A DNA stretch of 64,000 bases. Origin: Dyella halodurans (GTDB taxonomy: Bacteria > Pseudomonadota > Gammaproteobacteria > Xanthomonadales > Rhodanobacteraceae). A model generated the notes under the pieces. The model saw only the letters and a program-made list of their open reading frames with translations, did no database searches and was not told the origin of the DNA. The stretch lies in assembly GCF_026283925.1 (NCBI RefSeq), contig NZ_JAPDPF010000002.1, forward strand, positions 124,001-188,000. The letters are read 5' to 3'. A program made the position numbers and the translations under genes. Below, one piece after another: positions 39,767 to 52,746 of the stretch (within the stretch, counting starts at the first letter, position 1; each line of letters begins with the position of its first letter).

Positions 39767-39988
39767 CGTCGCCCTCGTCTTCGAGTAGCGCTCCAGGGCC
39801 AGACGGCCATCGTAACTGAATCGAGTAGGGCTACCGAAGCAGACGTGGTGAGGGGCCGAGTGAGTCACCCCTGATTTGGCGAAGATGTAATGCCTAGCGT
39901 CCTTCGGTACATGCTTCCGGCGTACCGAGTAAGGAGTGGGGAATAGAGGGCGGCGTGGGCCGCCCCGTCCCGCCTTCCAGGTTCCACT

Positions 39989-40018
39989 TGACATTTATTT
40001 AGATATTTAGCTAAATAG
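39989..40018 (+). promoter_or_regulatory. Promoter and operator of the ArsR-type gene
   Basis: TTGACA at 39989-39994 and TAAATA at 40013-40018 form a promoter with an 18-bp spacer. A perfect 14-bp palindrome, TATTTAGCTAAATA (40005-40018), covers the -10 box and is the natural operator for an ArsR-family autorepressor. The ATG at 40024 lies only 5 bp after the -10, so the transcript would start at or next to it: a leaderless mRNA. Confidence 0.7.
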
Positions 40019-40023
40019 CGACA

Positions 40024-40329
40024 ATGAACGCCGTCTTCAAAGCCTTGGCTGACCCGACCCGCCGCAAGGTGCTGGAGTTGCTGCGCCAGGGGCCGATGAC
40101 CGCTGGGGACCTGTCGGACCAATTCCCGGTGTCGCGGCCGACCATGTCGGCGCATTTTGCGGTGCTGCGCGAGGCTGACCTGATCGAGGCCAACAAGATC
40201 GGCACGAGCATCCTCTATCAGTTGAAGTTGTCGGTGCTGGAAGACGCACTACTGAGCTTCACCCAGCTGTTCGGTATTGGCGCTGGCGAGGCCCAGCGCA
40301 AACCCACCCGTAAAGGAGCCGACAAATGA
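40024..40329 (+). CDS. ArsR-family winged-helix autorepressor (SdpR-like)
   Basis: 101 residues. The winged helix is clear: FKALADPTRRKVLELLRQGP, TAGDLSDQFPVSRPTMSAHF (recognition helix), AVLREADLIEANKIGTSILY. It has no cysteine metal site, so it is not an arsenic or zinc sensor. It resembles SdpR, which represses its own operon and is released by a membrane partner. The next gene, overlapping by 4 bp (ATGA), encodes a small membrane protein, matching that arrangement. Regulation is visible in the promoter: a perfect palindrome on the -10 box. Confidence 0.88.
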   Translation: MNAVFKALADPTRRKVLELLRQGPMTAGDLSDQFPVSRPTMSAHFAVLREADLIEANKIGTSILYQLKLSVLEDALLSFTQLFGIGAGEAQRKPTRKGADK

Positions 40330-40751
40330 GCGCGAACCCCCATCTTCTCCGCGCGAAACAAGAAATTCTCTTCGGCCTAAAGTTGGCCGCCGCGATGATT
40401 GGCGGCGCCCTGTTGCTCACGCTGGCCCGCAAGCTCGGATGGGTCGACGGTGAGCAGGTCGGGCGCGGGCAAAACGTGATCATCGGTCTCGCCTTGGCGG
40501 CCTTCTGCAACCTCATGCCAAAGCGGCTGAACGCATCGCCTCAGTCCGTCCGCTGTGTGACGCTGGCGCAGTCGATAGCGCGCGTCGGCGGTTGGGCCAT
40601 GACGCTGGCGTTCCTGGTATGGACCGCGCTATGGGCATTCGCGCCGCTGCCGCTGGCCAGGCCCGGCGCGGTGGCCGCTATCGGCGCTGGCGTCGCGGTC
40701 ATGCTGGGCTACGCAGTGTGGAAGGTGGCAAGGTCCACTTCGGGTCGGTAG
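40326..40751 (+). CDS. Small membrane protein co-expressed with the ArsR-type regulator
   Basis: 141 residues with four hydrophobic segments (KLAAAMIGGALLLTLARKLG; QNVIIGLALAAFCNLMPKR; WAMTLAFLVWTALWAFAPLP; VAAIGAGVAVMLGYAVWKVA). Translation is coupled to the regulator through the ATGA overlap. By analogy with SdpI-SdpR it may sequester the repressor at the membrane, but no sequence motif proves this. Its stop codon lies inside the first copy of the TCCGC-type palindrome that marks the accessory region. Confidence 0.75.
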   Translation: MSANPHLLRAKQEILFGLKLAAAMIGGALLLTLARKLGWVDGEQVGRGQNVIIGLALAAFCNLMPKRLNASPQSVRCVTLAQSIARVGGWAMTLAFLVWTALWAFAPLPLARPGAVAAIGAGVAVMLGYAVWKVARSTSGR

Positions 40752-40759
40752 CGAACCTT
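40730..40759. repeat. TCCGC palindrome, copy 1
   Basis: AAGGTCCACTTCGGGTCGGT followed by AGCGAACCTT, in the opposite orientation to most other copies. Overlaps the stop codon (40749-40751) of the membrane protein gene. Confidence 0.7.
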
Positions 40760-40790
40760 GTGACCACGTCGGTCTTTCGGCAAGCTGGGG

Positions 40791-40818
40791 AGGTCCGTTT
40801 CCGACCGCAAGCGGACCT
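40791..40818. repeat. TCCGC palindrome, copy 2
   Basis: AGGTCCGTTTCCGACCGC then AAGCGGACCT. The outer ten bases pair with one G-T mismatch. This is the best-preserved uninterrupted copy. It lies 93 bp before the next start codon. Confidence 0.85.
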
Positions 40819-40910
40819 GAGGGTAGCCTTGGATGGGGCTCAAAGTCTTGAATTTCTGCGAAAGGCAGCCGCGGGCTCGTTCGTGGATGTTGTTCGCCAC
40901 CGAGGGTCAT

Positions 40911-41330
40911 ATGAGAAGCAAGATTGCCCGCCAGGTCTTAGTGGTGTTGAGTCTTTGCATGTTTCTAGTTTCGATGCCTCTTCAGACCATGGGTATTGGA
41001 TCGCCTGGCTGGGGCGTGTTCCTTTTGGGTTGGGCAGGGCCGGCAACCATCCTAGAAGTGGGGCCCTTTGTCGCGTTTGGCTGGTTCGCTAATCCCCTCC
41101 TATTTGCTGCATGGGCGGCTACCCTGGCGGGTGAAAGAAGACCGGCGCTGGCATACGCCGGTGCTGGTCTTGTTCTGGGTACTCTTGTTCTTCTGGGCCA
41201 GCGGGTGGTCTTAAATCCGGATTCAGACGCAGGCACTAGTCCTTTGGAGCACGGCCCGGGATTTTGGACTTGGCTTGTCGCGCTCATGCTTGGTGTCATC
41301 GGAGCGGCACTCGTACGTCGGAAGGGTTAG
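40911..41330 (+). CDS. Membrane protein of unknown function
   Basis: 139 residues from ATG at 40911 (MRSKIARQVLVVLSLCMF); an in-frame ATG at 40833 would start in the spacer next to a palindrome and is less likely. Four hydrophobic segments: VLVVLSLCMFLVSMPL, WGVFLLGWAGPATIL, NPLLFAAWAATLAG, LAYAGAGLVLGTLVLLGQRV, and a last one, FWTWLVALMLGVIGAALV. No named family recognised. It is the first of several small plus-strand genes, each followed by a TCCGC palindrome. Confidence 0.65.
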   Translation: MRSKIARQVLVVLSLCMFLVSMPLQTMGIGSPGWGVFLLGWAGPATILEVGPFVAFGWFANPLLFAAWAATLAGERRPALAYAGAGLVLGTLVLLGQRVVLNPDSDAGTSPLEHGPGFWTWLVALMLGVIGAALVRRKG

Positions 41331-41359
41331 CTGCGTACGCTAGTGTTCACGGGAAGCAC

Positions 41360-41467
41360 TGTCCGCTCCCGCCTGCGGATTCAGCCGGTCGTTGCAACAC
41401 TCCTGCTGTTCGCACAGTCTTCAGTGTGTTGCATCGACTGGCTGAAACCACAACCCCAAGCGGACCT
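41360..41467. repeat. TCCGC palindrome, copy 3, split by an IS30-derived mini-element
   Basis: TGTCCGCTCCCGCC (41360-41373) and ACCCCAAGCGGACCT (41453-41467) are the two halves of a palindrome, separated by 79 bp that start and end with IS30-type terminal repeats. Confidence 0.8.
41374..41452. mobile_element. 79-bp non-autonomous IS30-derived mini-element
   Basis: The left end TGCGGATTCAGCCGGTCGTT and the right end, reading inward on the other strand TGTGGTTTCAGCCAGTCGAT, are recognisable as the IS30-type inverted repeats of the element at 48082-49308. The inside (CTCCTGCTGTTCGCACAGTC) matches the right end of the 191-bp derivative at 49794-49984. No transposase is left. The right repeat has decayed, so this is an old insertion. 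Confidence 0.8.
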
Positions 41468-41504
41468 TAAGCAGGAGCGGGAAAATGGCAACAAGGACGC
41501 ATTG

Positions 41505-42014
41505 ATGAAGCTCATGGCTTTGCTACTAACCGCCACTCTATTGATGCCAGCGGGCCCCGCCCTGACTAGAGACCTGTCAGCCAACGAAGTCCTCGCGCAC
41601 ATTCGGAAGGTGGGGGAGAGGCGGGCGCTCGCCGACTACTTCGAATCGCATGACTGGTCTAACTTGACACGTGGAATAGGCTCAGGCGAACCGGAATGGC
41701 TTGGGGTCTATCAAGCGCTGCGGCCTGTTTCCGATGGCGAATCAGGCGAAGATCTCGGAGAGGCGATCTTCGATGCGCTGCCAAAATATCCATTCCGCGT
41801 CTTGCCGATCCTGGAAGTGGAGACTCACGTCACTGTTCAGGAGCTTTGTACGTTTAGCTTCGAATCCAAATATCCTGACGATGGTGTAGAGAGCTATCTC
41901 ACTCGCCTGGACGGGGCACTGGCGCTCGCGGCAGGCGAGAATGAGCGACGAATGGCAAGTCAGTGTCGACTTGGAATCCAAGCAACAAAAGAATCCATCA
42001 AACATGGATCCTAG
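41505..42014 (+). CDS. Small exported protein of unknown function
   Basis: 169 residues from ATG at 41505, with AGGA nearby. An N-terminal signal peptide (KLMALLLTATLLMPAGPALT) is followed by a soluble domain: LSANEVLAHIRKVGERRALA, DYFESHDWSNLTRGIGSGEP, LPKYPFRVLPILEVETHVTV. The pattern of a fixed -DALPKYPFRVLPIL- block with two later cysteines suggests a folded periplasmic domain, but I do not recognise a family. The longer frame back to 41343 runs through the mini-element and is rejected. The stop codon is immediately followed by palindrome copy 4. Confidence 0.65.
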   Translation: MKLMALLLTATLLMPAGPALTRDLSANEVLAHIRKVGERRALADYFESHDWSNLTRGIGSGEPEWLGVYQALRPVSDGESGEDLGEAIFDALPKYPFRVLPILEVETHVTVQELCTFSFESKYPDDGVESYLTRLDGALALAAGENERRMASQCRLGIQATKESIKHGS

Positions 42015-42041
42015 TGTCGGCTCCCGACCCGAAGCAGACCC
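42015..42041. repeat. TCCGC palindrome, copy 4
   Basis: TGTCGGCTCCCGACCC then GAAGCAGACCC, a decayed copy starting one base after the preceding stop codon. Confidence 0.65.
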
Positions 42042-42089
42042 AATCGGGAGCTCACTGCGAGAGGTACTTTGCACTTGGTTCAAAAGGCC

Positions 42090-42503
42090 ATGCACACATA
42101 CTCTGTACAACTCAGGATCAGTGGGGCAGGACTCTGCCCCGACGAGATCACCGATCGAATCGGCCTTGAACCTAACCAAGTGAGACGAAAGGGGCAGCCG
42201 AGAAACACAAAAGAGCTATGGTCCGAATCGATGTGGTCATACGATGGCTCTGCTGACGGCTCGATAAGGGAGTGGAGCAGCCTAGAGGAAGGGCTGTCAT
42301 CGGTCATGGATGCCCTTTGGCCCAAACGCGCGTCAATCGGTGCATATGCACGCCACTTCCATGTTGTTTGGTGGTGTGGCCACTTCCAGTCCAGCTTTGA
42401 CGGCGGCCCGACCTTCTCTGTTGCGCTACTACAGAGGCTGGCTGAATTTGGCGTTCCTCTATATCTCGACAACTATTTTTCGGATGCGGACGAAACCGAA
42501 TAA
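42090..42503 (+). CDS. DUF4279-like protein
   Basis: 137 residues from ATG at 42090 (MHTYSVQLRISGAGL); the frame is open to 42069. The start Y-S-V-x-L-R-I-S-G, then CPDEITDRIGLEPNQVRRKG and the W-x-Y-x-G segment SMWSYDGSADG, is the layout of DUF4279 proteins, small cytosolic proteins common in accessory regions and often seen with immunity-type genes. Their activity is unknown. It stands between palindrome copies 4 and 5 on the plus strand. Confidence 0.75.
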   Translation: MHTYSVQLRISGAGLCPDEITDRIGLEPNQVRRKGQPRNTKELWSESMWSYDGSADGSIREWSSLEEGLSSVMDALWPKRASIGAYARHFHVVWWCGHFQSSFDGGPTFSVALLQRLAEFGVPLYLDNYFSDADETE

Positions 42504-42515
42504 CGTGTCAACACG

Positions 42516-42542
42516 AGGTCCGCTCCCGACCCAAAGCCGACA
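42516..42542. repeat. TCCGC palindrome, copy 5
   Basis: AGGTCCGCTCCCGACCC then AAAGCCGACA. It lies 12 bp after the DUF4279-like stop codon. Confidence 0.75.
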
Positions 42543-42729
42543 CGACAAATTTAGATCGCATCACGTCCAGGGATCCGACGTCCCCCCACTGCAAGTTACG
42601 CGATGTTTCAGAGTGCGGCGGTGAAACTGCGCTGGCGACGTCGGCTACCCCATCAAGCTATGCTCTAGCCTGCCTAAGGACAGCATCACGGTCCGACGCC
42701 GGATCAACCGAGAGAGGCTGGAGGGTTTC

Positions 42730-44670
42730 ATGGCTTCTGAATCACAAGTGGCGCCACCTGCCTCACCCAGCCAGCGCGCGATCACCATCATCGCTTCGGC
42801 CACGATATTGGCCTTGCTCTATTTTGGCCGGGAAGTGCTGGTGCCGATTGCGTTGGCGCTGTTCCTTAGCCTGCTGATGGATCCGTGGGTGCGGCTGTAT
42901 CGGCGTCTGGGCATGGGACACGGCCTGTCGGTGTTCATTGCCGTGCTCGCCCTGGTGGTGATCGTTACCGGCCTGACGACGGTGATCGGCTCCCAGGTGG
43001 TGCACATGGCCCGCAGTCTGCCGCAGTACCAGGCGACCATCCACTCGAAGGCGCAGACGCTGCGCGCCATGACGGTCGGTCGCATGGAGGCGGTGCAGGG
43101 CGAGTTCGGCAAGGTGATCAACCTGCCCGAAGCGCGCAACGCCTATCCGCCGCTGACATCGCCCACTGCGCCTTCGTATCTGGCACCCACGGCGCCAAGT
43201 GCCGAGCCGGTGCAGGCACCAACGCCCAACACGCCTACGGCGGTAATTACGCGCATTCTCTCCACGGTATGGATTCCACTGCAGACCGCCGGCATCGTGC
43301 TGGTCGTGCTGGTGTTTGTGTTGCTGGAACACGAGTCTTTGCGCGATCGCTTTATTCGCCTGGTCGGTGGCGCGGATCTGCGCGCGAGTACCGCCGCCAT
43401 CAATGACGCGGGCGAGCGGCTGTCGCGATTCTTCGTCTCTACGTTCTCGGTCAATTTCGGCGTGGGCGCGGCCATATGGCTGGGGCTTTCACTAATGGGG
43501 TTGCCCGGTGCACCGCTCTGGGGCGTGCTCACTGCGGTACTGCGGTTCGTGCCTTATGTGGGCGTATGGATGGTTGCGGTGCTCGCGGCGGTATTCGCAG
43601 CTGCGGTGGTTCCGGGCTGGTCGCTGCTGCTGATGACGCTGGCGTTGTTCCTGGTGGTCGAGCTCGTGGTGTCCCAGTTGGTCGAGCCGCTGCTCTACGG
43701 GCATACCACTGGCCTGTCGCCACTGGCTATCGTGGTGGCGGCGATCTTCTGGAGCTGGCTGTGGGGGCCGGTCGGGCTGATCATGTCCACGCCATTGACG
43801 CTCTGTCTGGTGGTGGCCGGACGTCACATCAAGGCGCTGGATCTGCTTAGCATCCTGCTGGGCGACGCGCCCGCGTTGACGATGCCGCAGCGGCTTTATC
43901 AGCGCGCGCTTTCCGGCGACTCACAGGAAATCATTGCGGAAGCCCGCGAGTTTCTGAAGCGCAAGTCGTTTGCGGCTTATTGCGATGCCGTGCTGTTGCC
44001 GGCAATGCAGCTTGCGCGCATCGACCTGACGCGCGGGGCAATCAATCGCGAGCAGCAAGAGGGTGTACGACATGTCATCGTGACGGTGGTCGAGACCCTG
44101 GGGGGCGAGGCGCGACGGTGGTCGAGCCGGCGTCGTCCCAGCTCGGTGCTCGATGATGTAAGCATTGGTCGTCGCCTGCGACAGCAGCGGGAAAATATCA
44201 GCGGACGCTGGCAGGGGCCGCTGTCGGTGGCGCCGGAGTCCGTGGTGCTTTGCGTGGGCCTGGGATCCATGGCCGACGATCTGGCCACGGAGATACTTAC
44301 GCGCATCCTGCGCAATCTTCATATTGATGCACGCCATCTGTCGACGGAGGATTTCATTGCCTTCGAAGCCGAATTGCATCCGGAGCTGACGCCCAATGCG
44401 GTCTCCATGGTCTATATCGTCAGCGCCGATCCGGCCCGTGCAGCGCAAGGCGATGCACTGGCCGGTGACATGCGCGTGCGCTTCCCCCATGCCTGCATCG
44501 TGGCGGTGCTGCTGCCGGAATTGCTGAGCCCGCGCGAGGAACTGGCGCCTGTTGGTGCGGATGTCAACGAAGTCGTGGAGTCACTGGAAGCGGCTGCCCT
44601 GCAAGCGATCGCCAGGTTCCCCAAGGTGGGCGAAGACACGGCGCCTTCAGCGCGCCGCTCTCGGGGCTGA
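42730..44670 (+). CDS. AI-2E family (PerM-type) transporter with long C-terminal soluble domain
   Basis: 646 residues; GAGGG lies before the ATG. The first 375 residues are a normal AI-2E/PerM permease: helices from ITIIASATILALLYFGREVL, ALALFLSLLMDPWVRLYRRL, a large loop rich in Pro/Thr/Ala (about 140-180), ILSTVWIPLQTAGIVLVVLV, the signature block GLPGAPLWGVLTAVLRFVPY, and LWGPVGLIMSTPLTLCLVV. The remaining 270 residues are soluble and include VVLCVGLGSMADDLATEILT and a Rossmann-like alternation (VSMVYIVSADP, HACIVAVLLPE). Normal family members are about 350 residues, so this is a fusion. The substrate is unknown. It overlaps the convergent dihydrofolate reductase-like gene by 24 bp. Confidence 0.88.
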   Translation: MASESQVAPPASPSQRAITIIASATILALLYFGREVLVPIALALFLSLLMDPWVRLYRRLGMGHGLSVFIAVLALVVIVTGLTTVIGSQVVHMARSLPQYQATIHSKAQTLRAMTVGRMEAVQGEFGKVINLPEARNAYPPLTSPTAPSYLAPTAPSAEPVQAPTPNTPTAVITRILSTVWIPLQTAGIVLVVLVFVLLEHESLRDRFIRLVGGADLRASTAAINDAGERLSRFFVSTFSVNFGVGAAIWLGLSLMGLPGAPLWGVLTAVLRFVPYVGVWMVAVLAAVFAAAVVPGWSLLLMTLALFLVVELVVSQLVEPLLYGHTTGLSPLAIVVAAIFWSWLWGPVGLIMSTPLTLCLVVAGRHIKALDLLSILLGDAPALTMPQRLYQRALSGDSQEIIAEAREFLKRKSFAAYCDAVLLPAMQLARIDLTRGAINREQQEGVRHVIVTVVETLGGEARRWSSRRRPSSVLDDVSIGRRLRQQRENISGRWQGPLSVAPESVVLCVGLGSMADDLATEILTRILRNLHIDARHLSTEDFIAFEAELHPELTPNAVSMVYIVSADPARAAQGDALAGDMRVRFPHACIVAVLLPELLSPREELAPVGADVNEVVESLEAAALQAIARFPKVGEDTAPSARRSRG

Positions 44671-45360
44671 TGCCTCTTCCTGCGCCCATGCCGCGCGCCG
44701 ATTTAGCTCCGCGGCGCTCGGTTCCTTGGTCTCGAACGAGCCGGTTGGCACCTCGCCGGCTGGTTCATAAGTTGCGAACACCACACCGCTATTGGACACG
44801 AAATGCTCGACCAGCTTGAGTGCGCCCGGCTTCTGCGAGCCGTCGAAGACGCGCCTGCCTTGGCCAAGCAGGACCGGGAAGGTCATCAGGATCAGCCGGT
44901 CGATCAGACCCGCGGCAAGCAACGGTCCATAGAGGGAGCTGCTGCCCTGGATCAGCAGGTCACGGCCCTCGCTCTGCTTGACCGCGGCAACCGCTTCGGC
45001 GGTGTCGCCGCATAGCTTGTGGCTACCTTCCCAGGTTAGCGGCTCGTCGGCATGCGTGAGCACATATTTGTTGATGCGCTGGAATTTCACGCCGATCGCA
45101 TGATCCTGGTTATACGGCCAGTAGGCGGCGAAAATATCGTAGGTGCGCTTGCCGAGCAGCAGGTCAAATTCCGGTTCGTCGAAAATCCTGGCAGTCGGCG
45201 CCTGCATGCTCTCGTCCCAGAACGGCGCGGTCCAGCCGCCGAAACGAAAGCCGCCAGACCGATCCTCCTCGGGAGCACCGGGCGCCTGGATGACGCCATC
45301 CAGCGACTGAAAGAAGGCGCCCGTCAGCTTGCGCTTCATCACGATGGTGTTGTCAGCCAT
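44647..45360 (-). CDS. Dihydrofolate reductase family (RibD C-terminal-like) protein
   Basis: 237 residues from ATG at 45360, with GGAG upstream; the frame back to 45411 is not needed. The domain is the RibD_C/DHFR-like fold widespread in accessory gene pools: GAFFQSLDGVIQAPGAPEED, FDLLLGKRTYDIFAAYWP, KYVLTHADEPLTWEGSHKL, RDLLIQGSSSLYGPLLAAGL and IDRLILMTFPVLLGQGRRVF. These are probable NADPH-dependent reductases with unknown substrates, not the folate-cycle enzyme. The C-terminal 30 residues overlap the transporter gene tail to tail. Confidence 0.88.
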   Translation of the reverse strand: MADNTIVMKRKLTGAFFQSLDGVIQAPGAPEEDRSGGFRFGGWTAPFWDESMQAPTARIFDEPEFDLLLGKRTYDIFAAYWPYNQDHAIGVKFQRINKYVLTHADEPLTWEGSHKLCGDTAEAVAAVKQSEGRDLLIQGSSSLYGPLLAAGLIDRLILMTFPVLLGQGRRVFDGSQKPGALKLVEHFVSNSGVVFATYEPAGEVPTGSFETKEPSAAELNRRAAWAQEEASAPRAAR

Positions 45361-45961
45361 GCTTGCTCTCCTTCGGGTCGAATCGCGGGTGCGCTGGCGA
45401 CGTCGTCCCACGGCCTTCGTGGGCTAAGTGGCGCGCTCTCAAACCAGCATCAGAAGCGCGATCGTAACGCTACGAATGCGGTCGCCGCGTCATGGGCAGG
45501 GCCGCTAACCACGTCTGCTTGGCTGGATCGGTGACCGGCTGCAGGGCAGGGGCCAAAAACGACCGGAGTCGCTTGGCCGGCCGAGTCTGTCGCCCTCGCG
45601 GTGCATCGCGTGGACGGTATGAGGTAGCTCCCTGCGCAAATTGTTCCAGCCCCTGAGTAGGGCCCGCAGGAGCCAGGCGGTATCGCCTATCGTTTGCAAA
45701 TAGCCGACGTCAATAACAGCTAAACCCCACACGCAAGCTCGCTGCTTCGCCACACAAAACACCGCGCTTCTCAAGCGATGCGCGGGCTTTCTCCCGGCGG
45801 ACACGGCTTGCGTGGCATGCGAAGGTCCGCGAGTCGGCGGATGCGATGCATCCAGTCTTTCCGCCGACACGTTGCTTCATCGCAAGGGAAATAGCGCGGG
45901 CCGAAAGGGCAGCAACCCAGACGACCCGCTGACCACAACCAACTTACACTAGGAGTTGATC
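45361..45961. other. 600-bp region without a convincing gene
   Basis: Frames exist on both strands (for example 45505-45870 minus, 121 codons), but none has a ribosome site or a recognisable product. The last 15 bp hold AGGAGTTGATC, the ribosome site of the following gene. No repeat or RNA gene was recognised. Confidence 0.5.
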
Positions 45962-46312
45962 ATGGCTACGATCGATCATACGGCAGCCACCGGTTCTTCC
46001 GCTTCCAACGGCGTCACACGTCCGACAAATCCACTTGGCCGTCCGTTCTGGACACTGTCGCTCGCCAAGGATGCCGACAAGTTCCGCTCCGCTCGTATCA
46101 CCGGCTTGTGCATGGGCATTCAGGCGGTGACACGCATCCTGGCCAACAGCGACACCTTTCGCGTGATCCAGTCGAAATGCGATCAAATGGAGCCAGGCAG
46201 CTGGCCCCTGGACAGCGAGATCACCGAGGGCATGTTCGCCGCGCTCTACTTCCTCAGCGAACAGGCGGAATTCGCCTGCAAGTCGTCCCTGGACGAACTG
46301 GGCTTCGAATAA
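45962..46312 (+). CDS. Small protein of unknown function
   Basis: 116 residues from ATG at 45962, with AGGAG seven bases before it. The first 35 residues are low-complexity (Thr/Ser/Ala-rich). A helical domain follows: PFWTLSLAKDADKFRSARIT, LCMGIQAVTRILANSDTFRV, MFAALYFLSEQAEFACKSSL. It is soluble with no export signal. No family was recognised. It stands alone between the empty region and a GGAGCGC-type inverted repeat. Confidence 0.65.
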   Translation: MATIDHTAATGSSASNGVTRPTNPLGRPFWTLSLAKDADKFRSARITGLCMGIQAVTRILANSDTFRVIQSKCDQMEPGSWPLDSEITEGMFAALYFLSEQAEFACKSSLDELGFE

Positions 46313-46411
46313 GACCGGGTGTTCGCATAGCGGGAGCGACTTTCGCTGGCGCGGTGACGGGCACTGAACGAGGGACAAAGGTGACATGGATCACAAGCTG
46401 CGCTTCCCGCT

Positions 46412-46520
46412 TTTGTAGGAGCGCCGCTTGTGCACCAAGAATCCACCCGCAAACGGCATCGCGTGGTCATGGCACTGAGGCCGGCCGGCGGCTGGTCGCG
46501 CATTGGGTGCGCTCCTACAA
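46412..46520. repeat. Inverted repeat of the GTAGGAGCGC type
   Basis: TTTGTAGGAGCGCCGCTTGT at the left faces ATTGGGTGCGCTCCTACAA at the right, with about 70 bp between, including the near-palindrome GGCCGGCCGGCGGC (46480s). It is related to the repeat at 22938-23078. The rest of 46313-46802 shows no gene. Confidence 0.75.
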
Positions 46521-46802
46521 GGGGGGGCGGGACCGCGGATGCCAGTCAGGCTGAACATCAGGTCCGGAGAGCGCTGATCATCTGGCCGATGCTGACGAGG
46601 GGCGGGTAGGGTGCTGCTGCCAGACACTACCGGTCATCGACTGAAAGGACTCGCTTGCGACCCGAATCAAACATGAAAAGGCCAGCTTTCGAAGGTGGAG
46701 ACTGACTAAGATGTCTGTAGGCGCAGTCGTTTAGACGGCAGATGTCGCCAGACTGCTTCGCGGCAAATGCCATGGCGGAGGTCCACTTTAGGGGGAGTAA
46801 CG

Positions 46803-47686
46803 ATGCTGAAGAGGCGAAGCGCAGGCTGGCTTCTTCTGTCAATGTTGATCGCGTTTCTTGGGCTTGTTGGCTTATGGGCTGCCGGGTCGTTTCTGGTTCG
46901 CCCGATCCAGGGCTCTATAGGGGCGCCGCCTCCTGACCTTCCTGCTCGGGCCGTCGCCTTTGCTGGAGCGAGCGGCGAGCCCATTCATGGCTGGCTTGTA
47001 TCCGGGACGGAAGGGCAAGGTGCGGTTTTACTTCTACATGGTGTTCGCGCTGACCGGCGAGCCATGATCGACCGCGCACGCTTCCTGCATGCGGCCGGCT
47101 ATGCAGTGCTGTTGATTGACTTCCAAGCCGCAGGCGAGAGCCCCGGCAAAGCCATTACATTCGGCTTGCGCGAAGCGAACGACGTAAAGACATCGCTGCG
47201 ATACATCCATCAACAGCTTCCAGGCGAGCGCGTGGGCATCATCGGCACGTCCATGGGTGGGGCCGCCACCGTTCTGGCCGAGCCTGACGTACAGGCTGAT
47301 GCTGTGGTACTGGAACAGGTCTATCCGACCATCAAACAAGCGACGGAGGACAGGCTTGCCATCCACATGGGACCCATGGGGCGCTGGCTGGCCCCCGTAC
47401 TGCTGACAACTCTACACGCTCATCTCGACATTTCTCCCGATCAATTGCGCCCGATTGACCAAATTGGGCGCTGTCGATGCCCAAACTAATGATCGTGGGT
47501 GATCGCGATCGGGACACCACAATTGCCGAATCATATGCAATGTTTCGCGCGGCGACGGGACCTAAGGATCTATGGGTGGTACGAGGCGCAAGTCACGTTG
47601 ACCTGTGCAGATACGCAGGGATCGACTATCAGGTGAGGGTGCTTAGCTTTTTCGATGTCTGGCTTCGAGGGACGCCGCCGCGATAG
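46803..47686 (+). pseudogene. Alpha/beta hydrolase, broken by a one-base frameshift
   Basis: Two frames together make one protein. The first (46803 on) has an anchor helix (GWLLLSMLIAFLGLVGLWAA), then AVLLLHGVRADRRAMIDRAR, LLIDFQAAGESPGKAITFG, and the nucleophile elbow GIIGTSMGGAATVLAEP (Ser in G-x-S-x-G). It then runs out of frame after PIDQIG. The second frame resumes with LSMPKLMIVGDRDRDTTIAE and the catalytic His region VRGASHVDLCRYAG. Adding one G to the GGG at 47466-47468 restores a continuous reading frame of about 295 residues. The intact family is the BAAT/peptidase S9-like hydrolases. Either a recent inactivation or a sequencing error in a short G run. Confidence 0.85.
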
Positions 47687-47762
47687 GATCCGCTCAGATT
47701 TTCGGACCAGCTAACGGGGAGCTCGCGGCCAGCCCGTAGCGGACGTCGCGCGGGGACAACAA

Positions 47763-48026
47763 TTGGAGAATGCCTTGGTTTTATTCGCGCTCACGAGACA
47801 CGGATTGTCAGAGGCTATCGATCTCACGCGGGGTAGCAACTCGGCGATCTGGGTGAATCATGGTCTATTGGATGTAGCGAATGTGGACGAGTTACGTGCA
47901 GAAGGCTTTGATCTGACGAACTTCGTCCACTGGATTGATCCTGTTGACGAAAGGGCAGTTCAAGATGCAGCAGCAACCATTCGGGAGCATCACCCCGATC
48001 AAGTCCTCTACATTGAGCGAAGTTAG
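47763..48026 (+). CDS. Small protein of unknown function
   Basis: 87 residues with a TTG start at 47763 (codons ENALVLFALTRHGLSEAIDL follow). The product is acidic and soluble, with NSAIWVNHGLLDVANVDELR and FDLTNFVHWIDPVDERAVQD. The regular hydrophobic pattern and lack of stops favour a real gene, but the start lacks a clear ribosome site. No family was recognised. Its stop is followed five bases later by palindrome copy 6, like the other small genes in this region. Confidence 0.5.
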   Translation: MENALVLFALTRHGLSEAIDLTRGSNSAIWVNHGLLDVANVDELRAEGFDLTNFVHWIDPVDERAVQDAAATIREHHPDQVLYIERS

Positions 48027-48031
48027 CTTTT

Positions 48032-48058
48032 AGGTTCGCTTCCGACCCAAGGCGGCCA
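48032..48058. repeat. TCCGC palindrome, copy 6
   Basis: AGGTTCGCTTCCGACCC then AAGGCGGCCA; partly decayed. Only 10 bp separate it from copy 7. Confidence 0.7.
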
Positions 48059-48081
48059 TATCCATTGGGTCCGCTTCCGCA

Positions 48082-49308
48082 TGCGGATTCAACCGGTCGT
48101 TGCAACAGTTTGATGAAATCGCTCGGCCGGCGTCTCGAAGTTTAGAGTCTTTCTTGGACGTCCGTTCAACTCGCGCGCTACAGCGTTGAGCTTTGCCTGC
48201 GAGTGCACGGACAAGTCGGTGCCCTTGGGGAAATACTGCCTCAGCAAGCCGTTGGTGTTCTCGTTCGACCCTCGCTGCCACGGATGCTGGGGATCACAGA
48301 AGTAGACTTGGATATCGGTCGCCAGCGTAAAGCGTTTGTGGTCGGCCATTTCGCTACCGCGATCCCAGGTCAGCGAGCGATAGAGTTCCTTGGGCAACGT
48401 GCGCGCATGTTTGATCAACGCATCGACAACCGTCTCGGTGTCTTTCCGGGCGACTTGGATCAGCATGACAAAGCGCGTGTACCGCTCAACGAGGGTGACG
48501 ATCTGGCTGTTGCCGCTGCCGCAGAGCAGGTCGCCTTCCCAATGACCGGGTACGGCCCGGTCCTCCACGCTGGCCGGGCGCTCGCTGATGGAGACCGTGT
48601 CGCGTAGCCGGCCGTGGTTTGCCGTCTTCTGCGTGTGCTGACGCGACCGGCGCATCGTTCGAGTGCGTCGCAAGTGGGCCAATAGTTCTTTTTTTAAGGC
48701 ACCGCGGGCCTGGACGTAGAGGGTGCGATAGATGGTCTCGTGTGACACCTGGCGGTCCTCGTTGCCCGGGTAGGTGTGCTTAAGCCAACCGGCAATCTGC
48801 TCCGGCGCCCATCGCCCTTGCAGCTTCTTTCCCACGTAGTTGGCGAGCACCCTGTGCTTGGCCAGCTTGCAGACCTTGGGGCGACGGGCGCGATCCCAGG
48901 CTTGCTGATCGGCCCGGTTGGCTCGGTAATCGTCCCGACCGCCGCTACGCTGGATCTCGCGACTAATGGTCGACGGTGCTCGCCGCAGTTGCAAGGCGAT
49001 GGCGCGGATCGAACGGCCCGCGACCAGGGCTCGGGAGATCTCTTCGCGCTCGGCTAGGGTCAACGCGCGCTCGGCGCGGCGACGAGGCATCGGTCGTATG
49101 CCACCGGTCTCAGCGAGTATCCGACGCACCGACGAGTGGTGCCGATCGAACAGCTTGGCGATCTCGTGCAACGACTCCCCAAGCTGCCAGCGGTCCCACA
49201 TCACCGCCTTCTGAGTCACTGTGTAATGGATCCGTGGTCGTTGAGCCATTGCCACACACCTCCTGCTGCCGCAGTCTAGGGGTGTTGCAACGACCGGTTG
49301 AATCCGCA
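48082..49308. mobile_element. Complete IS30-family insertion sequence (about 1227 bp)
   Basis: Terminal inverted repeats of 26 bp, beginning TGCGGATTCAACCGGTCGTT, are identical at both ends. A CA dinucleotide flanks both sides (48080-48081 and 49309-49310), consistent with the 2-3 bp target duplication of IS30 elements. One transposase gene fills it on the minus strand, and its stop codon lies inside the left repeat. The perfect ends and intact gene suggest recent activity. Confidence 0.92.
48089..49249 (-). CDS. IS30-family transposase
   Basis: 386 residues from ATG at 49249, with AGGAGG upstream; the longer frame starts inside the terminal repeat. The two N-terminal helix-turn-helix segments are typical (WDRWQLGESLHEIAKLFDRH; RSIRAIALQLRRAPSTISRE). 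The catalytic DDE domain has the first Asp in PGHWEGDLLCGSG, the second in LTWDRGSEMADH, and the Glu in RGSNENTNGLLRQYFPKG, the IS30 family signature. The stop codon overlaps the left terminal repeat. No frameshift or internal stop is present, so it should be active. IS30 transposases are known for preferring palindromic targets, which fits its place here. Confidence 0.95.
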   Translation of the reverse strand: MAQRPRIHYTVTQKAVMWDRWQLGESLHEIAKLFDRHHSSVRRILAETGGIRPMPRRRAERALTLAEREEISRALVAGRSIRAIALQLRRAPSTISREIQRSGGRDDYRANRADQQAWDRARRPKVCKLAKHRVLANYVGKKLQGRWAPEQIAGWLKHTYPGNEDRQVSHETIYRTLYVQARGALKKELLAHLRRTRTMRRSRQHTQKTANHGRLRDTVSISERPASVEDRAVPGHWEGDLLCGSGNSQIVTLVERYTRFVMLIQVARKDTETVVDALIKHARTLPKELYRSLTWDRGSEMADHKRFTLATDIQVYFCDPQHPWQRGSNENTNGLLRQYFPKGTDLSVHSQAKLNAVARELNGRPRKTLNFETPAERFHQTVATTG

Positions 49309-49367
49309 CACCATTGCGGACGTTGCGTCACTACATATCTGCTTCGTTACCCGGCAAGGAGTCGCCC

Positions 49368-49697
49368 GTGAAAATGTCAGACATCCCATTTGGTACAACA
49401 GATTGGTCATCCGTGGACCCAACGGAGCACGCGGGCGAGTCTGGTTTCGCCTATTGGCGTACCAGGAACTTCGGAAGTTTGCGGGTTCGGATGATTGAGT
49501 ACACACCGGGCTATCTTGCGGATCATTGGTGCCTCAAAGGGCACATCCTCCTTTGCATGGAAGGCGAGCTCCATACTGAGCTCAACGACGGTCGCCAATT
49601 CACGCTGAAGCCCGGCATGAGCTATCAAGTCGGTGATGACGCGGAAGCGCACCGGTCCTATACCGATATAGGTGCCAAGCTGTTCGTTGTTGACTGA
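49368..49697 (+). CDS. Cupin-fold protein (ADHWC motif)
   Basis: 109 residues from GTG at 49368 with AGGAG six bases upstream; an ATG at 49374 is the alternative. The single-domain cupin reads SDIPFGTTDWSSVDPTEHAG, GFAYWRTRNFGSLRVRMIEY, PGYLADHWCLKGHILLCMEG, ELHTELNDGRQFTLKPGMSY, with the final DAEAHRSYTDIGAKLFVVD. The His residues of ADHW, KGHI and AHRS are plausible metal ligands. This is a widely spread, uncharacterised cupin family often found beside mobile DNA. The IS30 element stands directly upstream, so the native promoter may have been displaced. Confidence 0.8.
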   Translation: MKMSDIPFGTTDWSSVDPTEHAGESGFAYWRTRNFGSLRVRMIEYTPGYLADHWCLKGHILLCMEGELHTELNDGRQFTLKPGMSYQVGDDAEAHRSYTDIGAKLFVVD

Positions 49698-49780
49698 GCT
49701 GCAGCGAGTCGATTGCGCCTTGATCCTGACGACTGGAAGGGCGCATGAAGAAGGCTGCCAGGAATCTTGTGAAGGCTGAT

Positions 49781-49999
49781 GTTCGCGTCCGACTGCGGAT
49801 TCAGCCGGTCGTTGCTTCTCGAAAAGCTTGGCAATCTGGTGAAGTGACTCACCACGTTGCCAACGGTCCCATATCAGCCCAATCGGAGTGTCGGTGTAAT
49901 GAGTCGGAGGCCGTTGGAACATCTTGCAGCACTCTTGCTGCTCGCGCAGTCTTCGGTGTGTTGCAACGACCGGCTGAATCCGCAAGCCCAAGCGGGCAT
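49781..49999. repeat. TCCGC palindrome, copy 8, split by an IS30 remnant
   Basis: GTTCGCGTCCGAC (49781-49793) and AGCCCAAGCGGGCAT (49985-49999) flank the 191-bp IS30 derivative. The left arm has diverged from TGTCCGCTTCCGAC, so this copy is the least certain of the three interrupted ones. Confidence 0.65.
49794..49984. mobile_element. 191-bp IS30 deletion derivative with transposase remnant
   Basis: Starts TGCGGATTCAGCCGGTCGTT and ends with the matching inverted repeat GACCGGCTGAATCCGCA. The minus strand still encodes a transposase N-terminus, MFQRPPTHYTDTPIGLIWDR then WQRGESLHQIAKLFEK, which parallels the intact copy (MAQRPRIHYTVTQKAVMWDR; WQLGESLHEIAKLFDR) but is clearly a different subgroup. 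The rest of the gene is deleted. Confidence 0.88.
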
Positions 50000-50023
50000 C
50001 GCCAACGCAGAGAGAGTCTGAGG

Positions 50024-50533
50024 GTGAAGCGCTCCGAGATCCACAGCGGTAGCCTGCGTATAAGAAAGGCGAACCTCGACGACGCTCCGGGGATTTTCGC
50101 GCTTCGACGCGAGGCCATTCTTGCGCAATGTCGCGGTCACTATCCGCCGCGTGACTTGGAGATATGGACATCCGGGGCCATGTCGGAGGCGTTTGCCCGA
50201 CGCGTCGAAGAGCTGTTCTACGTTGTCGACGTGGATGCACGTATGGCGGGTTGCGGGATGATCGATCTTTCAACGGGCAAGATTGACGCGGTCTTTGTGC
50301 GGCCCGAGTACATGAGGCGCGGCGTGGGACGGGCGATCATGGACCACCTGGAACACCTCGCTCTGCGTGCCGGCCTTGCCAAGCTCCATCTGGAGGCTAC
50401 GTTGAACGCCGCGCCGTTCTATCTTGCTTTGGGGTTCCAGCCCGAAGGCGACAAGCTCTACCGATCGTCCCTGGGTGTAAGCCTGGCATGCGTATCGATG
50501 AGCAAGCCGCTACGAAAAGGCTGGGAAGGGTAA
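50024..50533 (+). CDS. GNAT family N-acetyltransferase
   Basis: 169 residues from GTG at 50024, with GAGAGAG upstream; the longer frame to 49745 crosses the IS remnant. GNAT signatures: IRKANLDDAPGIFALRREAI at the start, then DAVFVRPEYMRRGVGRAIMD, the acetyl-CoA pyrophosphate loop (R-x-x-G-x-G as RRGVGR). The C-terminal GLAKLHLEATLNAAPFYLAL and GFQPEGDKLYRS follow the usual GNAT end. Acceptor unknown. GNAT genes are common cargo in gene cassettes, and this one lies between palindrome copies 8 and 9. Confidence 0.88.
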   Translation: MKRSEIHSGSLRIRKANLDDAPGIFALRREAILAQCRGHYPPRDLEIWTSGAMSEAFARRVEELFYVVDVDARMAGCGMIDLSTGKIDAVFVRPEYMRRGVGRAIMDHLEHLALRAGLAKLHLEATLNAAPFYLALGFQPEGDKLYRSSLGVSLACVSMSKPLRKGWEG

Positions 50534-50677
50534 GTGCCCTGCGGTGTGCGGTCAGGCGGGTTTTTCAAAGTATGCCAAAGCGACTTTTATCTCCATTCGC
50601 GTTTGGACACCTGTTGGCATTTCGCACGAGAAGGCCTTTTAGTTCGATCCCTGGGGGCGCTTCACCCATGGACATGG

Positions 50678-50704
50678 ATTCCGCTTCCGATCCGCAGCGG
50701 ACAT
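50678..50704. repeat. TCCGC palindrome, copy 9
   Basis: ATTCCGCTTCCGATCCGC then AGCGGACAT, 144 bp after the GNAT stop. The segment 50534-50677 has open frames but no credible gene. Confidence 0.75.
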
Positions 50705-50815
50705 GACGTGAGCCGTCCAAACGGCCAGTTACGTCAGCCAAGTAAGCGACTTGAAAGCCGGCGAGCGTATCGTTTCCGCAATTAGATGAAGCGCGGCAGC
50801 GGCACGGGGGTGCTT

Positions 50816-51436
50816 ATGCGTGCTCGATGGCTAATAGCTCTCATTCTCGTCATGCCATGTGGCCCTGCTTGGTGCGGTAGCGGCATCCTTGGGCTCGATC
50901 ACACGGTGCGCTACGACAACAGTGGCATCTGGAATCGGACCAATCAGGAAATCCTCCTGTACGGCACGATTGCCACGGTGGGCGGCGGCGCGCTCTGGCT
51001 TGGGGACAACGACAAGCTTGGTGACACGTTTTGGCGATCGGTCGACTCGCTGGTCATTACGGGCGTCGGCACGCAGGTGATGAAGTGGACGTTCCAGCGA
51101 GAGCGACCCTCACAGACTGACAACCCCAATAAATGGTTCCAGGGCATACACGCGCAAAGCTTCCCGAGCGGCGAAGTCGCGGCCGTCTCCGCCGCCGTGA
51201 CACCCTTCATGGCGGCCTATGGTCCCGACCATCCTGCGGTCTACCTCCTGGCCATATTGCCGGCATACGACGCCGTTGCTCGCGTGAAAACCCATGGACA
51301 CTGGCAAAGCGACGTGCTGTTTGGAGCGGCCATCGGCGCGGGCGTCGGCATCTGGAGCGCGCATAGGGACTCGCCGTGGATCATTACGCTGCTACCGGGC
51401 GGGTTCCGCGTGGGTTACGTGCATCACTTCGATTGA
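50816..51436 (+). CDS. PAP2 superfamily membrane phosphatase with PSGE in place of PSGH
   Basis: 206 residues from ATG at 50816, with GGGGG six bases upstream; an in-frame ATG at 50786 adds ten residues. A signal peptide (WLIALILVMPCGPAWC) is followed by the three PAP2 motifs: KWTFQRERPSQTDNP, SFPSGEVAAVSAAV and ARVKTHGHWQSDVLFGAAIG. Motif 2 ends in Glu, not the usual His, a variant I associate with one PAP2 subgroup; the nucleophilic His of motif 3 (GHWQSD) is kept. The C-terminus (FRVGYVHHFD) is beta-like. Likely substrates are lipid phosphates or pyrophosphates, but the changed motif makes activity uncertain. Confidence 0.82.
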   Translation: MRARWLIALILVMPCGPAWCGSGILGLDHTVRYDNSGIWNRTNQEILLYGTIATVGGGALWLGDNDKLGDTFWRSVDSLVITGVGTQVMKWTFQRERPSQTDNPNKWFQGIHAQSFPSGEVAAVSAAVTPFMAAYGPDHPAVYLLAILPAYDAVARVKTHGHWQSDVLFGAAIGAGVGIWSAHRDSPWIITLLPGGFRVGYVHHFD

Positions 51437-51630
51437 GCCCGAAGCACTTCGCAACGCCAGGTATAAAGTCTGTGGCACGGCGGACGAGATAGGGTCGGCT
51501 TGCGGGCCGGAACGGGCAGTTTGACGTTGCAGCGCAAGCTTGGCGGATCGACAGGGCCGCTTGGATCGCCTTGCCCGCTCCGTGTTTCTGCTTGGAACGG
51601 CAAACGATCGTTCAATCGCAAACGCTTCGC

Positions 51631-52746
51631 TTACCTCGCACGCAGATCCGTGACATACGCGTCAGCGATCAACACGGTAAGCGAAGCGGCCGCCGCGAAT
51701 ACAAAAAAGCGGTAGGTGTCCGCCGGGAAAAACAGCATATGTAGTGCGACGAAACTCAGGCAGATGGTGATGATCTGGGCTGTCTCATTCGCGGTTCCAT
51801 GGGCTTTCTTCAGCAGCAGCCAAGCCAATGCGAGTCCGAAGATCACAAAATGCGGTTGCGTCGTGAAGCTATAAGCCATCGAAATATACGGCCGGAGGTA
51901 ATCGCCCAGGGCGCGTGATGGGATCAATGTGGCGGGATACGGCGACTTGTTGATGAACGACATGTTGAACAGGGTCAGCCATCCATAGCTGCCGTTGGAC
52001 AGGGTGGCGAACAAGTAGAGTGCGCCGGCGGCTATCGCGGAGGCGACAGACTTCGCTTTGCTGCCGTTGACGAAGGTGTGTGCCAGCACCAGCAGGGACA
52101 GTAGCAGGGCGTCGGTCCTGACCAGCGGGAGCAGGGCTGCCAGGATGAAGACCAGGGAGCTGTTCCTGATCAGGGCATGGAGCGTCCATAGCGAGAAAAA
52201 GCAGGCCATGGCGTCGGGGGTGGACAAGCGCGCGATGTCCAGCAAGCCACAAGCGAGGACGACGAAAGGAATGCTCCAAAGTGGCGCACGCAACCTGACA
52301 CTGAGGGCGGCCAACATGAAGACCGATAGGGCGGCAAACGTAGCGCTGACGATATGGGTGGCTTCGGGGTAGTCGGAACCCAAGGCATGTACGACCTTGA
52401 GCGACTGCATGTACAACACGCGAATGCTGTAGAACGGCAATTGCTGCTGCAAGGATGTCGGGTCGTGAAACACCGTGGCCCGGTAGTCGCCCTGGATCAA
52501 TTGAGCGAAGGTGGCGGCGTCGACGGCGTTTTTCACGCTAGCGTAGGTGGCCTCATTCAAGCTGGCGCCATGGTGGCCTTCCGTGCTCAGCGCGACGGCC
52601 ACATAGCCGATCTCGTCCCAGTTGTTGTAGGGCTTCTTCAGGCCAACCGCCAGGACCGACAGTGCGGGGAGCACGGTCAGGGCCAAGCCGAAGAGGCTTA
52701 ACAAGGGGTGCTGGTCGCCTGGTTTCGGATATCCATCCGCTTGCAT
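51631..52746 (-). CDS. Polytopic membrane protein, probable GT-C type glycosyltransferase
   Basis: 371 residues with about eight to ten hydrophobic segments, from LLSLFGLALTVLPALSVLAV to FFVFAAAASLTVLIADAYVT. Just after the first helix comes KKPYNNWDEIGYVAVALSTE, an acidic D-E pair in the first periplasmic loop, where GT-C glycosyltransferases keep their catalytic Asp. Segments LLDIARLSTPDAMACFFSLW and LVRTDALLLSLLVLAHTFVN also resemble that fold, which uses lipid-linked sugars. No named family can be given. It is the last accessory gene before the mannosidase locus and is transcribed away from it. Confidence 0.65.
   Translation of the reverse strand: MQADGYPKPGDQHPLLSLFGLALTVLPALSVLAVGLKKPYNNWDEIGYVAVALSTEGHHGASLNEATYASVKNAVDAATFAQLIQGDYRATVFHDPTSLQQQLPFYSIRVLYMQSLKVVHALGSDYPEATHIVSATFAALSVFMLAALSVRLRAPLWSIPFVVLACGLLDIARLSTPDAMACFFSLWTLHALIRNSSLVFILAALLPLVRTDALLLSLLVLAHTFVNGSKAKSVASAIAAGALYLFATLSNGSYGWLTLFNMSFINKSPYPATLIPSRALGDYLRPYISMAYSFTTQPHFVIFGLALAWLLLKKAHGTANETAQIITICLSFVALHMLFFPADTYRFFVFAAAASLTVLIADAYVTDLRAR

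Follow-up and report, generated by a model that had tools for sequence, protein, structure and literature searches.

In a 64,000-nucleotide stretch of the genome of Dyella halodurans (NCBI RefSeq assembly GCF_026283925.1, contig NZ_JAPDPF010000002.1, positions 124,001 to 188,000 of the forward strand; hereafter the window), three insertions of the insertion sequence (IS) family IS30 lie in the centre of copies of one palindromic repeat. The transposase of these elements probably recognises the recombination site of a gene cassette system that is integron-like but distinct, of the lox/dif type, and for which a tyrosine recombinase of 207 amino acids (207-aa), encoded in the same genome, is the likely enzyme. 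This reading draws on features that can be seen in the sequence itself: the target of the IS, the organisation of the repeats in arrays, the recurrence of the intervening units beside other neighbours, a junction that maps in or next to the core of the repeat, and half-sites that adjoin the recombinase gene.

A 24-bp repeat as the target of IS30 elements

The repeat is a 24-bp imperfect palindrome, GTCYGCTTY-CGACCC-RNAGCRGAC, which is composed of two arms and a six-base core (CGACCC), and the IS inserts at its centre. The intact element of the window (48082-49308, minus strand) carries perfect 26-bp terminal inverted repeats, TGCGGATTCAACCGGTCGTTGCAACA, and is bordered by a 2-bp target duplication (CA/CA). 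On its left stands one half of the split site, GTCCGCTTCCGCA (48069-48081, plus strand), whose final two bases are the duplication CA; on its right stands the other, CACCATTGCGGAC (49309-49321, plus strand), and the rejoined flanks read GTCCGCTTCCGCACCATTGCGGAC. Its transposase matches the profile NF033563 at 295 bits (cut-off 80) and contains the domains HTH_38 and rve. Thus, both the transposase and the terminal inverted repeats with short target duplication that characterise the IS30 family are present. The transposase gene probably starts at the ATG at 49249 and would then occupy 48089-49249 on the minus strand, within a mechanically called open reading frame (ORF) of 48089-49309.

The other two insertions are shorter derivatives, with ends of the same kind as those of the intact element (0-4 mismatches). 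One is a 79-bp form resembling a miniature inverted-repeat transposable element (MITE), with two ends and no gene (41374-41452), between the plus-strand half-sites GTCCGCTCCCGCC (41361-41373) and ACCCCAAGCGGAC (41453-41465). The second is an internally deleted form of 191 bp (49794-49984), between GTTCGCGTCCGAC (49781-49793) and AGCCCAAGCGGGC (49985-49997), also on the plus strand. The target duplications of both are imperfect (CC/AC and AC/AG), which fits with their being older insertions. When rejoined, the sites of the three insertions differ from the 24-bp consensus at 3, 3 and 4 of 24 positions. A preliminary description, made from the letters of the window alone, had located these three insertions in the centre of a single repeat; its coordinates are right, and each pair of flanks rejoins to the palindrome. 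It had also considered a coincidence very unlikely. Chance can in fact be ruled out: the 24-mer has only 38 copies (≤3 mismatches) in the 4.69-Mb genome, against 0 for a reversed control, and yet it is targeted nearly always. These 38 copies are clustered at a spacing of ~0.4-1 kb, on one strand within most clusters, and sites are found in all 20 genomes of the genus, at 2 to 142 copies each.

The specificity of the element was examined in a census of its 26-bp end (≤3 mismatches) over 101 genomes, namely that of the window and 100 relatives. The genomes were not preselected for sites, unlike the array loci described below, and the surroundings of all ends were considered. A total of 127 ends was found, in 22 of the 101 genomes, and at 120 of them the 13 bases outside the IS correspond to a half-site (≤4 mismatches), against 1.2% of random 13-mers drawn from loci of these genomes. 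Ends were also paired into elements (≤5 mismatches), which gave 35 insertions in 11 genomes, a subset of the census loci. The preliminary description had proposed that removal of the element and alignment of the flanks would restore a palindrome, and this is what is observed: 32 of the 35 rebuild the full site (≤5 mismatches of 24), two have one clear half-site, and only one (G000:C5:68534-68613, in the genome of the window, G000) has neither. That insertion supplies two of the seven exceptional ends. Another two, at G000:C6:4703 and G014:C1:2492711, have partner ends that do match the half-site, and the last three are two ends in G078 and one in G027, genomes where no copy of the site was found by a genome scan at ≤2 mismatches. 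The 2-bp duplication is identical on both sides in 23 of the 35 paired insertions, with AC or GT as its sequence in 22 of the 23. Twelve copies measure 1220-1230 bp, MITEs 76-81 bp, and forms of 42, 191 and 241 bp also occur. The suggestion that the transposase recognises the repeat is therefore well supported by sequence and nearly certain, with a specificity that is close to absolute.

A weak control is offered by two copies of another IS30 subgroup, with a 45% identical transposase, that are present in the genome of the window: by eye no half-site is seen at the ends of the stretch that they share, the true ends of this element being undefined. In addition, a 2.3-kb part of the window (43230-45492) recurs at 89% identity in G014, where it adjoins a MITE-bearing site (G014:C1:2492658-2492736).

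A second insertion sequence uses the same site. This element, of the IS110 family (~L115:14397-15789, on G000:C1; domains DEDD and Transposase_20), is flanked by GTCT and GCTTTCGACCCAAAGCGGAC, which corresponds to position 4|5 of the 24-bp site with a one-base ambiguity, as read from both flanks of one copy. Thirteen distinct flanks of IS110 ends have been catalogued, with further ends in L080, L111, L119, L127, L250, L268, L279 and other loci. At many IS110 ends, the site reads GCAATG instead of GCGGAC. Contigs C19, C22 and C23 of the Dyella halodurans assembly start ~100 bases inside the IS110 element.

The repeat as the border of recurring single-gene units

The organisation of the sites was studied in 36 array loci from nine genomes, selected for holding sites, with 360 sites counted. 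Neighbouring sites within 2.5 kb of each other have the same orientation in 285 of 292 pairs. Between them lie 284 units with a median length of 488 bp. In 257 of these, the longest ORF is in the orientation of the sites, and it fills a median of 84% of the unit; these 257 ORFs start a median of 39 bp past one site and stop 18 bp ahead of the next. A Pfam family was assigned to 6 of 19 sampled ORFs, leaving aside the IS110 transposase: a CPCC protein, DUF6985, DUF4279, a GNAT acetyltransferase, a NUDIX protein and a CdiI immunity protein. The CdiI-type immunity protein is encoded by the cassette L126:11660-11926, and the genes carried by cassettes may include orphan immunity genes.

These units recur, and they do so beside other neighbours. 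Clustering of the units gave 259 clusters, of which 20 have more than one member (45 members in all). Among the 30 pairs of units from the same cluster, only one of the 24 that can be compared upstream shares its neighbour there, and only one of the 22 that can be compared downstream does so. For instance, the unit at 42016-42543 of the window recurs in the relative G014 at 92% identity, and similarity ends at both flanking sites. More generally, 60 of 270 ends of DNA matches between arrays fall within 20 bp of the centre of a site, against 2.4% of random points.

Where units join was mapped using pairs with ≥90% identity over ≥95% of their length. There are 13 such pairs, and a border site was counted only if at least three of its outer six bases differ, a condition that left 12 of 13 5′ sites and 10 of 13 3′ sites. 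In the usable 5′ sites, mismatches number 18 in the left arm, 0 in the core and 10 in the right arm; in the 3′ sites, the corresponding numbers are 5, 1 and 15. The left/right contrast between both kinds of site has a Fisher p=0.0095, and after removal of one pair with a non-homologous 5′ flank it becomes 17/4 vs 5/14 (p=0.0012). Homologous units are thus alike as far as the core and differ past it, with further mismatches outside the site at either border. This asymmetry places the junction between about positions 9 and 16, in or beside CGACCC, and the units appear to join in or beside the six-base core, where the IS inserts. The ends of alignments were discarded as an exact marker of the crossover, as alignments cross conserved sites and end at their outer edges; the mismatch map was used instead.

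A small tyrosine recombinase and the half-sites around its gene

The gene for the 207-aa tyrosine recombinase (G000:C1:123406-124029) was reached through a weak match in a search for integron integrases (TIGR02249); the protein scores 22 bits, against a cut-off of 265. No integron integrase over this cut-off was found in the 20 genomes of the genus, and an integron with IntI was ruled out on that count. The protein consists of a catalytic domain only (PF00589, 2e-21), and its matches to the profiles of XerA, XerC, XerD and tyrosine-type DNA invertases are below all cut-offs. Six residues, R58, K86, H155, R158, H181 and Y190, the catalytic residues of tyrosine recombinases, are invariant in 24 of 24 aligned sequences. 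Thus, the protein has both the domain and the R-K-H-R-H-Y residues by which a tyrosine recombinase is recognised. The alignment contains 24 of the 28 sequences listed first, out of a set of 80 loci and two more from the genus; a stop codon led to the omission of L183, whereas L164, L176 and L232 were left out for no substantive reason. A structure model of the protein resembles XerA, XerH, Cre and an integron integrase.

In the genome of the window, the recombinase gene begins 60 bp past the last of three minus-strand sites (122308, 122859 and 123322), and three plus-strand sites stand on its other side (124919, 129779 and 130369). In Dyella sp. OK004, an 87% identical recombinase is found beside 17 minus-strand sites, which are upstream of the gene. 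Fragments of the recombinase are present in G008, G013 and G014. One small protein, which presumably resembles RraB, is encoded near the recombinase in both G000 (L115:10548-10889) and G002 (L126:7610-8113).

At least 558 relatives of the recombinase exist in public genomes. The best 80 were kept as loci L159-L238, and almost all of these belong to Gamma-, Beta- and Alphaproteobacteria. Relatives with 62-67% identity are found on large plasmids of Cupriavidus, Azospirillum, Sinorhizobium, Pseudomonas aeruginosa and others; matches on plasmids add up to 1,515 records overall, mostly at <60% identity. An annotation view also places the recombinase in plasmid neighbourhoods of Methylomonas and Thauera.

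Of the motifs scanned at the recombinase loci, the half-site gave the clearest signal. At ≤1 mismatch, the right half-site CGRCCMNNAGCRGWC faces outward from the recombinase gene on its upstream side (minus strand) in 26 of 76 loci and on its downstream side (plus strand) in 30 of 79. In the wrong orientation, it is present at a single locus for each side (1/76 upstream and 1/79 downstream), and 7 of 686 background windows contain it. The complete site is less frequent beside the gene (11/76 upstream and 14/80 downstream at ≤5 mismatches, against 4/193 in the background). Over the 80 loci, a strict pattern of the whole palindrome has 44 matches against 12 in shuffled sequence, with 12 of the 44 in L159, while a relaxed motif has 84 against 0, with 18 in L159 and two or more in 19 of the 80 loci.

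Freeing core positions 3 and 6 of the half-site reveals two kinds of core, since CGACCC or CGGCCA is present in 25 of the 26 half-sites upstream of the gene and in 26 of the 31 downstream of it. Among the loci with half-sites on both sides, CGACCC is upstream and CGGCCA downstream in 10 of 20, which may hint at a separate specificity for each side of the recombinase gene. Moreover, because the half that faces the gene varies between lineages (as judged by eye), the sites beside the recombinase look like attI-type sites, composed of a resident half and a cassette half. In a class-wide sample, sites of the CGGCCA type are rare (13 of 274 genomes at ≤1 mismatch). G111, a 2.4-Mb genome of the same class, has 22 of them at ≤1 mismatch and is probably another array-bearing lineage.

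A possible mechanism

The reading of the repeat as part of a cassette system is well supported, and a mechanism can be outlined. In the site, two arms in inverted orientation (about GTCYGCTTY) would enclose a core of six bases, CGACCC here and CGGCCA in other lineages. A cassette would be a single gene with a right half-site at its start and a left half-site at its end, and exchange in the core would insert, remove or reorder cassettes while preserving their orientation. The 207-aa recombinase is the likely catalyst of this exchange, and free circular cassettes would be expected to exist. As half-sites often face outward beside relatives of the recombinase gene, arrays could extend on both sides of it. 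In turn, the IS30 transposase, with its N-terminal HTH domains, would have become specific for this near-palindromic site, where it would insert centrally, mostly with a 2-bp AC/GT duplication. The IS would thereby gain targets between genes, while the invaded site would presumably be blocked and so probably disabled. The preliminary description had regarded the repeat as a safe site between genes. The repeat does sit between genes; nevertheless, it is probably not a passive spacer, as it joins recurring single-gene units and the IS enters their apparent recombination core.

Weight of the evidence and alternative explanations

Several observations weigh against the proposed system or against its enzyme. 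The pairs behind the junction map are few and not independent, as two trios of units supply several of them. The reshuffling of cassettes is deduced from differing neighbours, and no gain or loss of one cassette was seen between near-identical strains. The conservation of each core position in 358 distinct sites (94-98%) is overstated, because the motif used to pick the sites contains the core. An intact close recombinase is present in only 2 of the 20 genus genomes (G000 and G002), though all 20 carry sites; outside Dyella sp. OK004, few sites are near the recombinase, and 43 of the 80 recombinase loci have no half-site on either side. The structure model is of moderate confidence (predicted local distance difference test, pLDDT, 68.7; predicted template modelling score, pTM, 0.55). 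Finally, some paired positions of the arms deviate from expectation: 6/19 (p=5e-7) and 12/13 (p=1e-4) do so without an excess of complementary pairs, and 8/17 is complementary in 168 sites against 146.8 expected (table p=0.14).

It might be, for example, that the arrays are indeed site-specific but that cassettes are mobilised by another enzyme, such as host XerCD or an unrelated integrase, and that the 207-aa recombinase is a passenger. The lack of an intact close recombinase in most site-bearing genomes of the genus would agree with this, and so would the presence in all 20 of other tyrosine recombinases, which are read here as XerC/XerD. Nevertheless, relatives of the recombinase from different genera have outward half-sites beside them much more often than background windows do, and in G000 and Dyella sp. 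OK004 the recombinase gene is placed where the sites switch orientation. This explanation is consequently considered unlikely. It overlaps with the proposed system in all but the enzyme, and the probabilities assigned to the different explanations do not sum to one.

It is improbable that the repeats are ordinary hairpins between genes, either terminators or similar to repetitive extragenic palindromic (REP) sequences, which are targeted by an IS as REPs are and belong to no cassette system. The repeats are palindromic and are found just past stop codons, and IS elements that target REP sequences have been published, as the accessible part of PMC1525189 describes. However, a selected hairpin should covary, whereas independent arms are expected if the half-sites stem from different cassettes. 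At the most telling pair of positions (4/21), 214 complementary pairs are seen in the 358 distinct sites against 215.8 expected, and, apart from the deviations mentioned above, there is no sign of a hairpin that is maintained by compensatory changes, as in a REP. Since the arms do not covary, a function as hairpin or terminator was judged unlikely. In addition, a search of four sources (the window, L126, L159 and L239) against Rfam gave no family over the repeat at gathering score, neighbouring sites share one orientation, units recur beside new neighbours, and half-sites, not whole palindromes only, are found beside recombinase relatives in other genera and classes.

Cassettes could also be reshuffled through homologous recombination, with either the short repeats or copies of the IS as substrate, as the repeats are numerous and alike. 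Against this stand the recurrence of units singly and bordered by sites, the lack of an IS at the listed border sites of recurring units, and the length of the repeat, as 24 bp is short for RecA-dependent exchange. These points make it decidedly improbable. Lastly, that the arrays are degenerate integrons, with the repeat as a part of attC in clusters without IntI, would be in line with the same-strand single-gene units, the lack of an integrase over the cut-off, the divergence of the recombinase gene from its adjoining sites and the targeting of attC by IS1111-type elements (excerpt of PMC11187229), but it is highly implausible, as there is no GTTRRRY box (base 25 is G in only 16% of the 358 sites, and bases 28-32 show hardly any preference), the junction is placed at the centre of the site and not at one edge, and none of the 20 genomes of the genus has an integrase over the cut-off.

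Other features of the window

The sites of the window belong to an island (39839-51647), in place of which G014 has ~200 bp without a recognisable site. Besides the three occupied sites, the island contains several unoccupied ones. The site at 40733-40756 is on the minus strand, in an orientation opposite to the rest, and those at 40793-40816, 42016-42039, 42518-42541, 48034-48057 and 50679-50702 are on the plus strand. The pair at 42016-42039 and 42518-42541 forms the 5′ and 3′ borders of the unit 42016-42543, and the site at 48034-48057 is 11 bp ahead of the one occupied by the intact IS.

The genes listed next are all on the plus strand. The unit 42016-42543 carries a cassette gene of the DUF4279 family (42069-42503). 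Further along, there is a small cassette-like ORF (47763-48026), and the segment 47737-48055 around it recurs in an array of G019 at 78% identity. Between the site of the intact IS and that of the 191-bp derivative, an ORF (49314-49697) has no Pfam match. The following ORF (49745-50533) encodes a GNAT acetyltransferase in its C-terminal part. Because its 5′ part overlaps the 191-bp derivative, the true start is probably not the one listed.

Comparison with known systems

Integrons are the classic means for bacteria to gather single genes and change their order. Their attC sites carry the boxes RYYYAAC/GTTRRRY at the outer ends, and crossover takes place at one edge of the site. Their substrate is a folded single-stranded site, a feature on which the lack of covariation between the arms bears only indirectly here. 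As in integrons, single-gene cassettes in one orientation form arrays here, and the gene of a tyrosine recombinase is divergent from the first site. Unlike in integrons, there is no IntI over the cut-off, the base frequencies of the 358 sites show no attC boxes, the junction is central (between positions 9 and 16 of 24) in a short site, and half-sites are present on both sides of the recombinase gene. Thus, the repeat is best understood as the place where cassettes recombine, in a system that resembles an integron in its working and yet fails the tests for one.

The architecture of the site is closer to that of XerCD/dif, pdif modules and Cre/lox, where two inverted arms surround a crossover region of 6-8 bp. 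What differs is the recombinase, which here has only the catalytic domain, and the presence of long arrays of sites in direct orientation. In pdif modules, the sites alternate in inverted orientation, a pattern that is at odds with the 285 of 292 neighbouring pairs in the same orientation.

Taken together, these features tip the balance slightly towards a class of gene capture that has not been described to date, a counterpart of integrons in Gamma-, Beta- and Alphaproteobacteria. Its traits would be a catalytic-domain-only recombinase that captures single-gene cassettes to the left and right of its own gene, double-strand exchange at sites of the lox kind, two types of core that may separate these sides of the gene, and two families of IS, IS30 and IS110, that became specialised on the site independently. 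Among the titles listed by a literature search, none describes this repeat or this cassette system, although subscription journals were largely outside its coverage and absence is thus not proven. If the reading holds, variable gene islands of Proteobacteria that integron finders would probably miss could be accounted for by a second cassette machinery, unrelated to integrons, and a small recombinase with short sites could be of use as a tool. The census of IS30 ends is a very clear example from nature of how a transposase recognises its target, and site-specific parasites of this kind mark the core of recombination.

Regarding the insertion sequences, IS30 of E. coli shares with the element described here the transposase family, the paired ends and, according to the available portion of PMC9333248, hot-spot targets that are nearly palindromic. 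The difference is that a single defined 24-bp target, itself a putative recombination site, is found here at 120 of 127 ends. With the REP-targeting insertion sequences (available part of PMC1525189), the likeness is insertion in a repeated palindrome between genes; here, in contrast, recurring gene units have the repeat at their borders, and there is no covariation between its arms. A further parallel in habit is that of the IS1111-type elements, relatives of IS110 for which targeting of attC or REP is known (for instance, ISKpn4 and ISPst6 at attC; excerpt of PMC11187229). In these elements, too, an IS is specific for the recombination site of cassettes, and the IS110-family element reported here uses the same 24-bp site as IS30. 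Nevertheless, the IS30 transposase, with its rve domain, is unrelated to theirs, and it enters the core of a different kind of site.

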